Source of the DNA: Phycisphaerae bacterium
GTDB taxonomy: Bacteria > Planctomycetota > Phycisphaerae > Tepidisphaerales > Tepidisphaeraceae
Direction of reading: 5' to 3'
NCBI GenBank assembly: GCA_025924315.1
Contig: JAICIO010000037.1
Coordinates: 1 to 50,975 of the forward strand
Length of the DNA stretch: 50,975 nucleotides
The notes under the pieces are model-generated. The model was not told the DNA's origin. It saw only the letters and a program-made list of their open reading frames with translations, and did not search any database. Positions 11,969 through 47,450 of the stretch are shown piece by piece. Positions within the stretch are counted from its first letter, which is position 1. The number at the start of each line of letters is the position of its first letter. The position numbers were made by a program, and so were the translations under genes.

Positions 11969-12039
11969 GGGAAGGCGAGGCTCCCGCCGAGCCGAAGCAC
12001 GGACCGGCAGCCGCGGCTCGGCAGGAGCCTCGCCCTCCC
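11969..12039. repeat. Large inverted repeat (GEAPAEP-type element)
   Basis: Arms of 25 bases (11969-11993 and 12015-12039) pair with two mismatches around a 21-base loop. One reading frame spells GEAPAEP. It lies between two minus-strand genes. A 13-base direct repeat (TTTGTCGTGCCTC twice, about 12057-12083) follows it. Confidence 0.8.
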
Positions 12040-12830: not shown

Positions 12831-12900
12831 GTTTAGCCCCCGCGGCCACGCGGGGGTTTGGTTGCGCTCGGAAATCCCCGCGTGGCCGCGGGGGCTAAAC
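12831..12900. repeat. Large perfect inverted repeat (GTTTAGCCCC-type element)
   Basis: Perfect 25-base arms (12831-12855 and 12876-12900) flank a 20-base loop. The arms start GTTTAGCCCC and contain CGCGGCCACGCGG. It sits two bases before the nucleotidyltransferase start codon, so it is probably in its leader and could affect translation; it may also end mqnD transcripts. Confidence 0.88.
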
Positions 12901-15429: not shown

Positions 15430-15434
15430 TTCCC

Positions 15435-15491
15435 GTGGCACGGGCGCCTCGCCCGTGCAAAAGGCCAACACGGGCGAGGCGCCCGTGCCAC
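15435..15491. repeat. Large perfect inverted repeat (GEAPVP-type element)
   Basis: Perfect 23-base arms (15435-15457 and 15469-15491) start GTGGCACGGGCGCC and flank an 11-base loop. The element lies five bases after the DUF1800 stop and ends just before the DUF1501 ribosome site, so it sits inside the two-gene operon. One frame reads TGEAPVP. Confidence 0.88.
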
Positions 15492-15508
15492 GAAAAGAGA
15501 GAGCCGCG

Positions 15509-24562: not shown

Positions 24563-25378
24563 TTGAGCATCGCACAACGACTTCGCGCCTTTCTTTCGCC
24601 GCAAACCAAAGCGCGGCTTCGGCGCAGTGCGATCGTTCGCACGCTGCTCTCACTTCGATATGGTGGAATCCAATCGAAACCCTATCCGCATGGACCGTTT
24701 CAACTCTGGTTTGATGGCGAGCGAAACCTGAACCTCGCGATCTCGGATGCGAGCGAAAGTGAAAGCCGGGAGATCGAGTTCGTCCGCGAGCTGCTGCAGA
24801 AGAATCCGCCGACGTGTGCGTGGGATGTTGGGGCGAACGTCGGGTATTGGACGCTCTTCTTCGCGGGGTTTTCGCCGTTCATTTCGCAGATCGTCAGCTT
24901 CGAGCCGGATGCGACGAACCGCCGACTGTTGCAGATGAACATCGATCGGAACGAGCTGAAGAACGTGACCGTTCGCGCGTGCGGATTGTCGGATCACATC
25001 GGCACGGCGACGTTTCACATCGATGGGATGACGGGATCGACGGGATCGCTCGAGGCCGATCATGACTTCATCGGCAAGCATTACGGCGCGCAGCAGCAAA
25101 CGGTTGAGGTGGAGATTTCGACGATTGATAAGGAGATCGCGGTGGGGCGCGCGGCGCCGCAGTTCATTAAGATCGATGTCGAGTCGCACGAACTGGGCGT
25201 CCTGAAAGGCGCCGAGCGAACGCTCGCGGAAGTGCGGCCGGCGATGATTATCGAAGTGTCCGCGAATCACGATGCGGTGGCGGAGATTCTGCGGCGACAT
25301 CGGTATCGGATGATCGATCCCACGACCGGGAAAGAGATCGACGCGCCGGCGTGGTCTACAGTTGCCTTGCCGGATTAA
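24563..25378 (+). CDS. FkbM family methyltransferase
   Basis: The protein has about 271 residues from a TTG at 24563; another TTG at 24512 would overlap the previous gene by 14 bases, and the start is uncertain. CAWDVGANVGYWTLFFAG is the SAM-binding motif I, VSFEPDATNRRLLQMNIDRN motif II, and FIKIDVESHELGVLKGAERTL the FkbM signature. Such enzymes O-methylate sugars in glycans or small molecules. There is no glycan cluster around it, so the substrate is unknown. Confidence 0.88.
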   Translation: MSIAQRLRAFLSPQTKARLRRSAIVRTLLSLRYGGIQSKPYPHGPFQLWFDGERNLNLAISDASESESREIEFVRELLQKNPPTCAWDVGANVGYWTLFFAGFSPFISQIVSFEPDATNRRLLQMNIDRNELKNVTVRACGLSDHIGTATFHIDGMTGSTGSLEADHDFIGKHYGAQQQTVEVEISTIDKEIAVGRAAPQFIKIDVESHELGVLKGAERTLAEVRPAMIIEVSANHDAVAEILRRHRYRMIDPTTGKEIDAPAWSTVALPD

Positions 25379-25395: not shown

Positions 25396-25479
25396 AACCC
25401 GCGGAGCTCCGCTCCGCCGCTAATTACACGACGGAGGGTCGGTCGAGATATTTAGCGGCGGAGCGCAGCTCCGCGGGTT
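25396..25479. repeat. Large inverted repeat (PAELRSAG-type element), copy 1
   Basis: 28-base arms (25396-25423 and 25452-25479) start AACCCGCGGAGCT and pair with one mismatch around a 28-base centre. It lies between the FkbM and spoVR genes. The right arm is identical, in reverse complement, to the left arm of a second copy (37973-38056) that is inside a coding sequence. One frame reads PAELRSAANY then YLAAERSSAGS. Confidence 0.9.
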
Positions 25480-25570
25480 CCGGCCTCGATACCCATCAGA
25501 TTTCATCGAGGAAATCCGGGATTAGGGCGGATATAAATAGTGATAGAGCGAAGTCTTAAGTGGAGTCGTC

Positions 25571-37439: not shown

Positions 37440-38588
37440 TCAGACGTTCAGCAGCTCACGGTATTTCGGAAAGATCGCGTCCCACGAGAAACGTTCGCGG
37501 ACGTGATGGGCGGCGCGATCGACGAGACGTTCGCGCAAGGCCCGGTCGCTCACGAGTCGGTCGATCGCCAGCGCCAGCTCGCGCGGCTGACCGTGCGGGA
37601 CCAGCAGGGCGGTGTCGTTGTTCTTCACCACGTTGCGAATTCCCGCAACGTCCGTCGCCACGATCGGCACGCGGGCGGCCATCGCTTCGATCAACACGAG
37701 GCCGAATCCCTCCGCTTTGGACGGAAGCACCAGCAGGCCGATCTGCGCGAGCCCTTCCTGCGGACGCTCAATCGTGCCATGCAGCGTGACCGAGCGCTCG
37801 ATGCCGAGCCGCCGGATCTCAGCTTCGATGTGAGCGCGCTCGCGCCCGTCGCCGAAAATGTGCAGGTGAACCGATCCGCCGAGGAGCAGCGTCGCTTCGA
37901 GTAAATCCGGAATTGACTTGATCGGATCGAGCCGGCCGATGAATCCGATGGGAAAAGGCGTAGTCGGGAAAGAACCCGCGGAGCTGCGCTCCGCCGCTAA
38001 ATAAGCCGCCGACGCACCTTCTCCATAATTCCCCGCGGAGCGCAGCTCCGCGGGTTTGTTTGCGCCACGATTCTCGAACTCCCCCGGCTCGATCGCATTG
38101 TGAATCACGACGATCTTCTCGCGCGGAATCTTCGCCCACTCGTGCGCGACCTCCGCCGTCGATTCCGACGGCACGATGATCTTCTCCGCCCGCGTCTGCA
38201 CCCGCCGCTGCAAAACCCAATGCCATCTCGGATAGGGCTGCGTCGTCTGAATCGACTGAATAAACCGCACGCGTGGGCAAACCAGCGAAGCTGTCGCCGC
38301 CGCGACGTTGGCGTGAATCAAAAAGCTAAAGACCATGTCAAACTCGCGATGATGAATCAGCTCGATCAGCCGCCCGATCGCGGTCAAATCATTCGCCCCG
38401 CGCGCATCGAGCGCTGTGACATTCACACCAGCATCGGTGAGTTGGGTCGCCACCGGTCCCCAGGTCGCAAGACACGCAACCTCGACGTACACATTAGGCA
38501 AACGATTCAGACGAATCGCCAATTCGCGCACAACCGTCGGCGTTCCGCCGATTTCCAGGTCCGTGATGAGTAAAAGAATTCGTCGCAC
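37440..38588 (-). CDS. GT4-type glycosyltransferase carrying an in-frame repeat insertion
   Basis: The protein has 382 residues. The N-terminal Rossmann domain (MRRILLLITDLEIGGTPTVVRELA) and C-terminal domain (IGFIGRLDPIKSIPDLLEA, LVLPSKAEGFGLVLIEAMAARVPIVAT) are classic GT4 retaining transferase parts; the EGFGLVLIEAMA motif is the donor-binding EX7E signature. Residues about 177-207 (starting NKPAELRSAGNYGE) have no counterpart and are encoded by the inverted repeat at 37973-38056. The insert falls exactly in the hinge between the two domains, so the enzyme may stay active. The sugar donor and acceptor are unknown. Confidence 0.88.
   Translation of the reverse strand: MRRILLLITDLEIGGTPTVVRELAIRLNRLPNVYVEVACLATWGPVATQLTDAGVNVTALDARGANDLTAIGRLIELIHHREFDMVFSFLIHANVAAATASLVCPRVRFIQSIQTTQPYPRWHWVLQRRVQTRAEKIIVPSESTAEVAHEWAKIPREKIVVIHNAIEPGEFENRGANKPAELRSAGNYGEGASAAYLAAERSSAGSFPTTPFPIGFIGRLDPIKSIPDLLEATLLLGGSVHLHIFGDGRERAHIEAEIRRLGIERSVTLHGTIERPQEGLAQIGLLVLPSKAEGFGLVLIEAMAARVPIVATDVAGIRNVVKNNDTALLVPHGQPRELALAIDRLVSDRALRERLVDRAAHHVRERFSWDAIFPKYRELLNV
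37973..38056. repeat. Large inverted repeat (PAELRSAG-type element), copy 2, inside a coding sequence
   Basis: The left arm (37973-38000) matches the right arm of the 25396 copy in reverse complement over 28 bases; the right arm ends at 38056 and has drifted by a few bases at its inner side. The whole element is 84 bases, a multiple of three, with no stop in the gene's frame. Confidence 0.9.
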
Positions 38589-43028: not shown

Positions 43029-43249
43029 GATTCTATCGTCCTAAAGCAAGCGAAATCCCGAGCCCGCGGCCGGTCAACACGTATAGCGCAACCCCTTAAA
43101 ATATCAGGAGCTACGTGCCAAAGGTCCCAGCGATCGAGGCAGGGAAGCGGCGTAAGATACTGCCGAGGCTCTCTTTATACAACGTCGGCGGCGTCACAAA
43201 AGTTTGGTTGGGAACGGAAAAAAGTGGGGTCGCTTGGTGGTCGCACCGT

Positions 43250-43305
43250 GCGGCTGAAGCCGCCGGGCCTCGAATGCGCGAAAGAGGCCCGGCGGCTTTA
43301 GCCGC
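43250..43305. repeat. Large inverted repeat (GCGGCTGAAGCC element) overlapping a gene end
   Basis: 22-base arms (43250-43271 and 43284-43305) pair with one mismatch around a 12-base loop. The right arm contains the TAA stop and last codons of the minus-strand acyltransferase gene, so the element forms that gene's 3' end and probable terminator. Confidence 0.85.
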
Positions 43306-44602
43306 AGGGCGCGGAATCGAGCTGGACGAGCCGGCTCGTGAAGTGCTGCGCGATCTGATTCGCACGTTCGTTTGAAATCACTGCTTCACGATACGTCAAT
43401 CCAAAGTTAAGCGTCCCCCCCAACGTTGTCGTCGTGAAGACCAGCGGCATCATTGGGCCGGTGGGTGACACACGAATGTACTGCATCAGCGGATCGGGAT
43501 GGTAATCCTGCGCCCATGATTGGTTGAGGTTGATGTTCGAAATCCCGCCCGCCAGCGGAATGCGCTTGCGATAGAAGTTGATGATTTTCTCGCGGTTCAT
43601 TCCCATCATCTTCGCGGCGACGATTCCCGCGAACATTCGGATCATGCTCGCCTCCGGCACGCCGGTGCGCTTTTGCGATGCGCTTTGACGTGCGATGTGC
43701 TGAAGCAATCGCGACCAGTTCTGCAAATCGTCTGGCCGGCAGATCACACTTGTGAACCCGAGGAACATTCCGAACGTGTCGCTTAAATCGTTCGTCCCGC
43801 GGGAGCGAAGATCGACGATCGTTCCAAGCGCCAGGTCCTGACGCTTGGGAGTCTCGGTCACGGGTACGAACCGATTGCACGCCTCCGCCATGGCGGCGAG
43901 GAAGACGTCGTTCACCGTTACGTGGTTGTCGCGCGCAAATGCTTTGACCGCGCTCATTGTTTCCGCGGGGAGATCGTGCACCGAGAAGCGCACCTCGAAC
44001 TTCGAAAACTCGGGGATCTCAATTCGGCGAACGCGCTTGAAACGGCTCGACCAACGGACGGACGAGAGCAAGCCTTCCGTCAATTCCCACCGTGAGCGAT
44101 GCGGTCCGAAGTTGTGCCAATATCCACGCGGCGCGATGTGAAGCCGCTCTCTTCGCGCGCGCGCCGGATCGAATTGCCGCAAAAACCACTCGCGGAGAAG
44201 CATGCGGATCGATGCGCTGTCGGCGATCCAGTGGTGATAGACGACGCCGACGTAATAGCGATCGCGCTCGAAGAGAATGAACGGCCGGAAGGGAAGATCA
44301 TCGGCGGCATCGAACGGATGGTTCAGTTCGATCGCGATGTGCTTTTCGAGTTCACATCGGCCGGCAATCGCGCGAACGTGAATCGGCTCGAGCACACCGT
44401 TCAGTTCCTGTACGGAAAAGCGGCCATCGTATACGCGCACGCGGCCAAGACCCATCTCGCGGAGCGTTCGATTCCAGTCATTCGTCCATCGATCAAGATC
44501 CGGTATGCCTCGGACCTGAAGAATCTGCGCGGCGTTGTACGGATGAAGTTCATCCCACTGGCGCACGAGGCGCTGAAAGACGTTGAGCTTTCCCGCAGAC
44601 AT
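43298..44602 (-). CDS. Condensation-domain/acyltransferase-fold protein
   Basis: The protein has 434 residues. YVGVVYHHWIADSASIRMLLREW carries the HHxxxD active site (His123, His124, Asp128) of the condensation/WS-DGAT/acetyltransferase superfamily. VNDVFLAAMAEACNRF and LGTIVDLRSRGTNDLSDTFGMFLGFTSVIC match the second half of the fold. It likely moves an acyl group from a thioester to an alcohol or amine. It stands alone without a carrier protein or NRPS, so it is more like a lipid or alcohol acyltransferase. The last residues (SAPCG) and stop come from the inverted repeat at 43250. Confidence 0.82.
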   Translation of the reverse strand: MSAGKLNVFQRLVRQWDELHPYNAAQILQVRGIPDLDRWTNDWNRTLREMGLGRVRVYDGRFSVQELNGVLEPIHVRAIAGRCELEKHIAIELNHPFDAADDLPFRPFILFERDRYYVGVVYHHWIADSASIRMLLREWFLRQFDPARARRERLHIAPRGYWHNFGPHRSRWELTEGLLSSVRWSSRFKRVRRIEIPEFSKFEVRFSVHDLPAETMSAVKAFARDNHVTVNDVFLAAMAEACNRFVPVTETPKRQDLALGTIVDLRSRGTNDLSDTFGMFLGFTSVICRPDDLQNWSRLLQHIARQSASQKRTGVPEASMIRMFAGIVAAKMMGMNREKIINFYRKRIPLAGGISNINLNQSWAQDYHPDPLMQYIRVSPTGPMMPLVFTTTTLGGTLNFGLTYREAVISNERANQIAQHFTSRLVQLDSAPCG

Positions 44603-46595: not shown

Positions 46596-47450
46596 TCAAA
46601 CGCGAACTTCGCCGGAGATGATTCGGTGCGTTTTGAGGCGGTTTTTGAGGAGAAGTCGCCCCAAATTATCGAGTCCGACGCATATGCCGGTGATCGGCGG
46701 TTCGCCGACGCTGGCGACGGTGACGCTCCGGCCGGCGAGGGCGTGGTGGCGATCATAGTCCGCCAACACGGTGGGAAATGAGTTCTCGTTGCGCTGCGAC
46801 AGTATCTGATGCAACTGATGAGCGATCGCGATGAGGACGCTGGTCATATCGAACGTTTGCCCGGTGATTTCGCGCATCGAGACGACCCTCGGGCGAAGCG
46901 GTTTGGGGATCTTCGCGAGATCGACATTCACATTGAGTCCGAGGCCGATGAGATCGATTTTATCGAGTCGCTCGCAGAGCAGTCCGGCCAGTTTCCTGGC
47001 TTCGAAAAGCAGATCATTCGGCCATTTCAGTTGCACGTTCGCGTGATCGCACAACTCCGCGACGGCGTTGCGAACGGCAACACCGGCGATGAGTGGGATT
47101 TGATGCGCTTGCAATGTAGTGTCGGCGGGGAAGACGAACGTGACGGTGAGCGAGCCTTCGCCGGACCACCAGGTATTCGTTCCGCGACCGCGGCCGGCGA
47201 GCTGATGGCCGGTGAGGACGATTGCCGGCGCGTAGAGTTCGTGACGCTTGCGAAGGACGGCCGCGTGGTCGTTCGTGCTGCGAAGACGCGGGAACCAGTG
47301 GAGACGAAGCGGCCGGATTTCGTCGCGGAGACGTTGAAGATCGAAATGATAAGAGGCACGAAGGCACGAAGGCACAAAGGCACGAAGTGATGCCGACTCG
47401 GTTGTTCTCTTCCCTTCGTGCCTGCGTGCCTTCGTGCCTTCGTGCCTCAC
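46596..47450 (-). CDS. birA: Biotin--[acetyl-CoA-carboxylase] ligase
   Basis: The protein has 284 residues. The ligase core shows TGHQLAGRGRGTNTWWSGEGSL (residues 80-100; GRGRG and Trp94 form the biotinyl-AMP site) and LKWPNDLLFEARKLAGLL (Lys153). It attaches biotin to carboxylases, and its probable substrate, pyruvate carboxylase, is immediately upstream with a 2-base gap. There is no HTH domain, so it is the group I monofunctional type. Residues 1-33 (RHEGTKARRHEG..., AFVPSCLRAS) are encoded by the inverted repeat at 47354-47447, and the GTG start with GGAG from the end of pyc drives it. Confidence 0.92.
   Translation of the reverse strand: MRHEGTKARRHEGKRTTESASLRAFVPSCLRASYHFDLQRLRDEIRPLRLHWFPRLRSTNDHAAVLRKRHELYAPAIVLTGHQLAGRGRGTNTWWSGEGSLTVTFVFPADTTLQAHQIPLIAGVAVRNAVAELCDHANVQLKWPNDLLFEARKLAGLLCERLDKIDLIGLGLNVNVDLAKIPKPLRPRVVSMREITGQTFDMTSVLIAIAHQLHQILSQRNENSFPTVLADYDRHHALAGRSVTVASVGEPPITGICVGLDNLGRLLLKNRLKTHRIISGEVRV
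47354..47447. repeat. Large inverted repeat of GGCACGAA units, inside birA's 5' end
   Basis: 34-base arms (47354-47387 and 47414-47447), each made of about four GGCACGAA-like heptamer/octamer units, pair with two mismatches around a 26-base loop. The whole element is translated in frame as the N-terminus of birA. It ends five bases before the pyc stop. Confidence 0.88.

Follow-up and report, generated by a model that had tools for sequence, protein, structure and literature searches.

What is an 84-bp palindrome doing in the middle of a glycosyltransferase gene, and how does the gene come to read straight through it? The palindrome lies at 37973–38056 of the window, by which we mean the whole 50,975-nucleotide stretch of DNA that was analyzed (contig JAICIO010000037.1 of a Phycisphaerae bacterium). 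The gene, on the minus strand at 37440–38588, encodes a GT4 glycosyltransferase of 382 residues with a GTG start. A first-pass annotation, made from the letters alone, had described an 84-base inverted repeat here that encodes about 30 residues with no stop. That description was accurate: the repeat is present, the ORF is open throughout, and the element supplies residues ~178–206 of the protein.

The palindrome is built like a REPIN, from two inverted REP units with their tags pointing inward. Its terminal arms are perfect inverted complements over 22 bp, and its predicted DNA fold has an energy of −32.6 kcal/mol (z −6.6). Direct reading places one hairpin, GCGGAGC-GCA-GCTCCGC, on the minus strand at 37978–37994, with a stem that covaries in the family, and beside it the tag TTTAGC at 37996–38001 (GCTAAA on the plus strand), the same tag that is found next to RAYT genes. 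The other hairpin has the same sequence on the plus strand (38035–38051) and a mutated tag; read against 36 intact dimers, this right-hand tag (38027–38034) has changed from the consensus TTAGCGGC to TTCCCCGC. Of the three substitutions, two lengthen the hairpin to 10 bp, in the manner of quasi-palindrome correction.

The window holds a second copy at 25396–25479, again 84 bp, with both tags intact. It is intergenic, as first annotated: one ORF ends at 25378 and the next opens at 25547. Its right arm is the reverse complement of the left arm of the GT4 copy, an identity put at 28 bases in the annotation and at 31 by direct reading. We searched window and genome with the 22-nt arm, allowing up to three mismatches and using the reversed arm as control. 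The search returned four matches in the window against 0.00 expected, and 101 in the 6.57-Mb assembly against 0 for the control, which excludes chance.

The genome carries ~60 dispersed copies of the palindrome, four of them genic, which answers the annotation's call to look for the arm elsewhere, including inside genes. Grouping nearby arms gave 62 entries: 36 intact dimers whose tags point inward, two whose tags point outward, and 24 arms that are single or have a diverged partner (the total becomes 61 if two entries with spacer sequence in common, L078 and L103, are one element split by a contig break). The two opposite arrangements, with tags outward and tails inward, are at G000 C29:6925–6990 and C90:20903–20965. 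Intact dimers are mostly 82 to 85 bp long, with peaks at 84 (12 dimers), 83 (seven), and 85 (six). The family consensus is AACCC-GCGGAGC-TGC-GCTCCGC-CGCTAAATA-spacer-TATTTAGCG-GCGGAGC-GCA-GCTCCGC-GGGTT, in which each REP unit has a 7-bp stem, a 3-nt loop, a TTTAGC tag on the inner side, and a GGGTT tail on the outer side, and the two units are separated by a spacer of ~25 nt.

The hairpin itself has been conserved by compensatory change. Stem variants GAGC/GCTC, GTGC/GCAC, GTCC/GGAC, GACC/GGTC, and GCCC/GGGC occur in this genome and in its relatives G006, G014, and G020. Paired cells make up 95.9% of the stem, and 13 are changed on both sides, against a shuffle mean of 3.7 (0 of 500 shuffles as high). 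The covariation score is 0.301 compared with 0.108 when shuffled (again 0 of 500), figures that reflect just four inner pairs free to vary, the outer stem being fixed by the search pattern. Inverted REP units with a short spacer, a short hairpin kept by compensation, and a high copy number mainly outside genes are all features of REPINs. Some 57 of the 61 copies are extragenic, lying between genes of various arrangements and in many cases within 20 bp of a gene end, where they may have regulatory side effects. Bacterial genomes are mostly coding, so that only ~4 genic copies among 61 implies that most genic insertions have been removed or avoided.

The GT4 copy is one of the few that stayed. 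Pfam assigns Glyco_transf_4 to residues 13–168 of the protein and Glycos_transf_1 to residues 207–360, and the insert therefore falls in the linker between them. Its 28 codons read xPAELRSAGNYGEGASAAYLAAERSSAGS, and alignment shows a segment of ~28 residues to be missing from all 21 GT4 homologues of the family, which bears out the claim of an in-frame insertion in the hinge. These homologues are at most ~59% identical, a distance at which the exact empty site is unreadable at the base level; the contig scan for a near relative with that site found only one relative, at 56%. Three homologues (L042, L044, and L045) have extra hinge residues of their own, which we rejected as copies since they differ from the palindrome. 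Neither outcome that the annotation had named as counting against it, an equally long hinge without the palindrome or an arm that occurs nowhere else, was encountered. Judged from its sequence, the protein is probably made and functional; tryptic digestion of the inserted segment is predicted to give peptides such as SAGNYGEGASAAYLAAER.

Three further genes carry in-frame dimers. In an FAD_binding_3 monooxygenase (C35:44521–44604), an 84-bp copy in the same reading phase as that of the GT4 gene encodes EPAELRSAANYG..YLAAERSSAGS, a segment absent from homologues. In a GH2 glycosidase (C64:11811–11890), an 80-bp element together with extra DNA makes a net addition of 108 nt that keeps the frame, and the insert is absent at the DNA level from the G020 homologue, the flanks of which are 76% and 62% identical. 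The last copy adds 90 nt within the signal peptide of a secreted protein (C73:10032–10120), the N terminus of which reads MSSRALVAS-[30 aa]-ICAFVVITCLAA, compared with MIKAHQLIAGIVLVTVVATAFAA in a 67% identical G020 protein. We judged a long minus-strand ORF over the L093 copy spurious, since plus-strand genes abut that element on both sides. Sequences of REP format also lie in frame in conserved genes of G020, namely bioF (L190:1503–1525), ileS (L123:1483–1523), and an ECF sigma factor, in its linker (L111:1501–1523). We rejected those in ileS and bioF as further insertions, there being no net extra length relative to homologues; replacement or convergence is possible instead.

Does the element, then, keep the frame by design? 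Counting from its first base, 32 of 72 strand-copies are open in phase 0 (NPRSxAPPL..SGGAQLRGF) and 22 in phase 2 (xPAELRSAxNYG..YLAAERSSAGx); in phase 1, TAA closes nearly all of them (three of 72 open). Owing to the palindrome, both orientations yield the same peptides. Dimer length is divisible by three in 16 of the 36 intact dimers which, with one phase nearly always closed, gives no sign of a frame-keeping design. The genic copies were located via ORFs, which makes frame-keeping in four out of four a biased test, and a non-exhaustive analysis of ORFs and codon positions revealed no gene clearly split by an element. Most simply, the in-frame copies are what selection left, by chance plus selection and without any frame-keeping build. 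The annotation had supposed that planctomycetes might have their own protein-invading palindromes that keep the frame. Dispersed in-frame insertion into genes stands; a new class does not, nor does invasion of proteins as a rule (~57 of 61 copies being outside genes), nor a build that keeps the frame (length divisible by three in 16 of 36).

What moves the element? The genome has ten Y1_Tnp loci, five of which form a related group (28–57% identity) that matches NCBIfam REP_Tyr_transpos below the cut-off. On C5, inverted hairpins starting TTTAGC (TTTAGCCGCGCGGGCTTGCCCCGCGCG) bound the RAYT on both sides, and this hairpin itself occurs in ~26 copies. The RAYT on C130 (L036) likewise has inverted TTTAGC hairpins on both sides (TTTAGCCCCCGCGG...). 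On C235 the RAYT has a TTTAGC hairpin on one side (TTTAGCGGCGCCCCGAAGGGGCG), and its format, TTTAGC-GG-CGCCCC-GAA-GGGGCG, is the closest to that of our element. These flanking stems differ from the element's own, and the assembly, which is incomplete (262 contigs), yielded no RAYT with the exact GCGGAGC hairpin beside it. In relatives, RAYTs have TTTAGC hairpins near the gene (L135, L136, L138, L139, and L150) or TTAGC hairpins (L141, L143, and L149). All the tagged RAYTs of the genome and its relatives fall within one 18-member clade with support of 100/100, which has the motif Y---NP, as in class 2. Eight of the 18 bear the strict TTTAGC label and three more TTAGC. The strict label requires five changes on the RAYT tree (27 of 500 shuffles were as low) and is only weakly clustered against shuffles; we rejected the idea that it marks a single clean clade. 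Relative G020 yielded no RAYT match of the TTTAGC-associated clade, though a few like-tagged REPs are present there.

The window and its genome hold other palindromes and hairpin-flanked units. A second REPIN-type palindrome at 12831–12900 (GTTTAGCCCCCGCGGCCACGCGGGG...) belongs to the family that flanks the C130 RAYT on both sides. The long inverted repeats at 15434–15492, 11969–12039, 43242–43313, and 47353–47448 differ in sequence (for example, CGTGGCACGGGCGCCTCGCCCGTG) and are perhaps other REP families. At L035:1–2565 (G000:C124), a DinG/XPD-like helicase contains, in the same open frame, a Y1_Tnp (HuH) domain with DEAD_2 and Helicase_C_2 on either side and CACGGGCTTTCAGCCCGTG-type hairpins at its flanks; apparently, a whole transposase unit was inserted here in frame.

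Perfect 22-bp terminal inverted repeats and a short size would also suit a MITE, derived by deletion from a DDE-type IS element and moved by a double-strand transposase. We consider this improbable: each arm forms a hairpin of its own, with a covarying stem, some arms stand alone or have a partner whose stem differs, and tags inside with tails outside fit REP dimers. Moreover, no target-site duplication is visible by eye beside the copies, and like-tagged hairpins flank Y1 transposase genes. The strong hairpin, and the many copies close to gene ends, could be taken to indicate a structural RNA, terminator, or attenuator that lies in an ORF by coincidence. This seems very improbable to us, given that Rfam returned nothing at gathering score (only subthreshold microRNA-type palindrome matches) and that copies sit between variously arranged genes, with four inside coding sequence.

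Might the GT4 copy be a selected, functional insert, regulating the enzyme or stabilizing its mRNA, for instance, rather than a tolerated passenger? The kept frame and the intact ORF on both sides speak for it, but the hosts (GT4, FAD monooxygenase, GH2, secreted protein) are unrelated proteins, none of the 21 GT4 homologues has the segment, and element lengths show no strong bias toward multiples of three; selection for function is unlikely here.

The structure of the element and its insertion are well supported, and the palindrome is very probably a REPIN-like miniature mobile element, presumably mobilized by a RAYT and tolerated in frame in the GT4 gene. That a RAYT clade is flanked by hairpins of different sequence with the same TTTAGC/TTAGC tag makes RAYT mobilization the best explanation of the element's spread, as far as sequence can suggest. 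A RAYT of the TTTAGC-associated clade (an HuH/Y1 single-strand tyrosine transposase) would recognize the tag with its hairpin in single-stranded DNA, then copy or move the dimer, with surviving copies mostly between genes. One copy would have inserted into the part of the GT4 gene that encodes the interdomain linker, where 84 nt in a usually open phase extended the gene by 28 codons and did not break it; three other genes presumably took in-frame copies likewise. More tentatively, a distinct REP–RAYT lineage with TTTAGC as its guide could be spreading in Phycisphaerales, its dimer, with two often-open phases on either strand, recurrently adding segments of ~30 residues to unrelated proteins that still function.

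With these observations, the range of in-frame insertion of REP dimers into proteins widens to include a planctomycete, in which homologues lacking the segment back four cases. The RAYT clade seems to use TTTAGC as its guide tag, which offers a natural test of how tags and RAYT recognition residues change together. There is also a caution for annotation: where a planctomycete protein has an odd segment of ~28 residues, this may be a peptide of mobile-element origin.

How does all this compare with what is known? REPINs were described by Bertels and Rainey in 2011 (PMC3116915). As there and in PMC3733652, we see two inverted, tagged short hairpins in dozens of mostly extragenic copies and RAYT (Y1) genes with like-tagged hairpins on their flanks; dimers with tags inside correspond to the TT type of the latter paper. 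The tag differs, being TTTAGC in the dimers and RAYT flanks (TTAGC in some relatives), and direct reading finds neither the GTAG foot (GTAG, GTGG, or close variants) nor the CGTC foot (CGTC, TGTC, or CCTC) of the two REP superfamilies; the RAYT clade here is in Phycisphaerales, and none with the exact arm was found. No word in the text of PMC3733652 or PMC8266576, as distinct from figures and supplementary tables, starts with TTTAG.

PMC3733652 also reports planctomycete REPs and, from Opitutus terrae, Rickettsia conorii, Thauera, and others, REP dimers encoding 20 to 30 residues in many unrelated ORFs with the frame unbroken, proposed to lie in loops or linkers; in-frame REPs inside TnpAREP genes are described in PMC6006769. 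Ours are alike in peptide length, in unrelated hosts, and in unbroken frame, and differ in species, tags, and host proteins and in having homologues without the segment for four genes. The class 3 TnpA-Y1 proteins of Planctomycetes (PMC6006769) are similarly flanked by atypical multicopy tagged hairpins, with foot CnGA and motif Y----Q where we find TTTAGC and Y---NP. The annotation's comparison with Rickettsia palindromic elements is sound as an analogy, not as membership: both are short palindromes in frame in unrelated proteins with the same peptide recurring, whereas here the phylum and tag are different, a small minority of copies is genic, and the REP-dimer anatomy is visible (RPE-4 and RPE-6 are treated as tagged REPs in PMC3733652). 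In-frame intragenic REPs and Rickettsia palindromic elements are already published, and the kind is thus known; set against the literature cited here, the TTTAGC-tagged REP–RAYT group of Phycisphaerales and its host proteins appear to be new.
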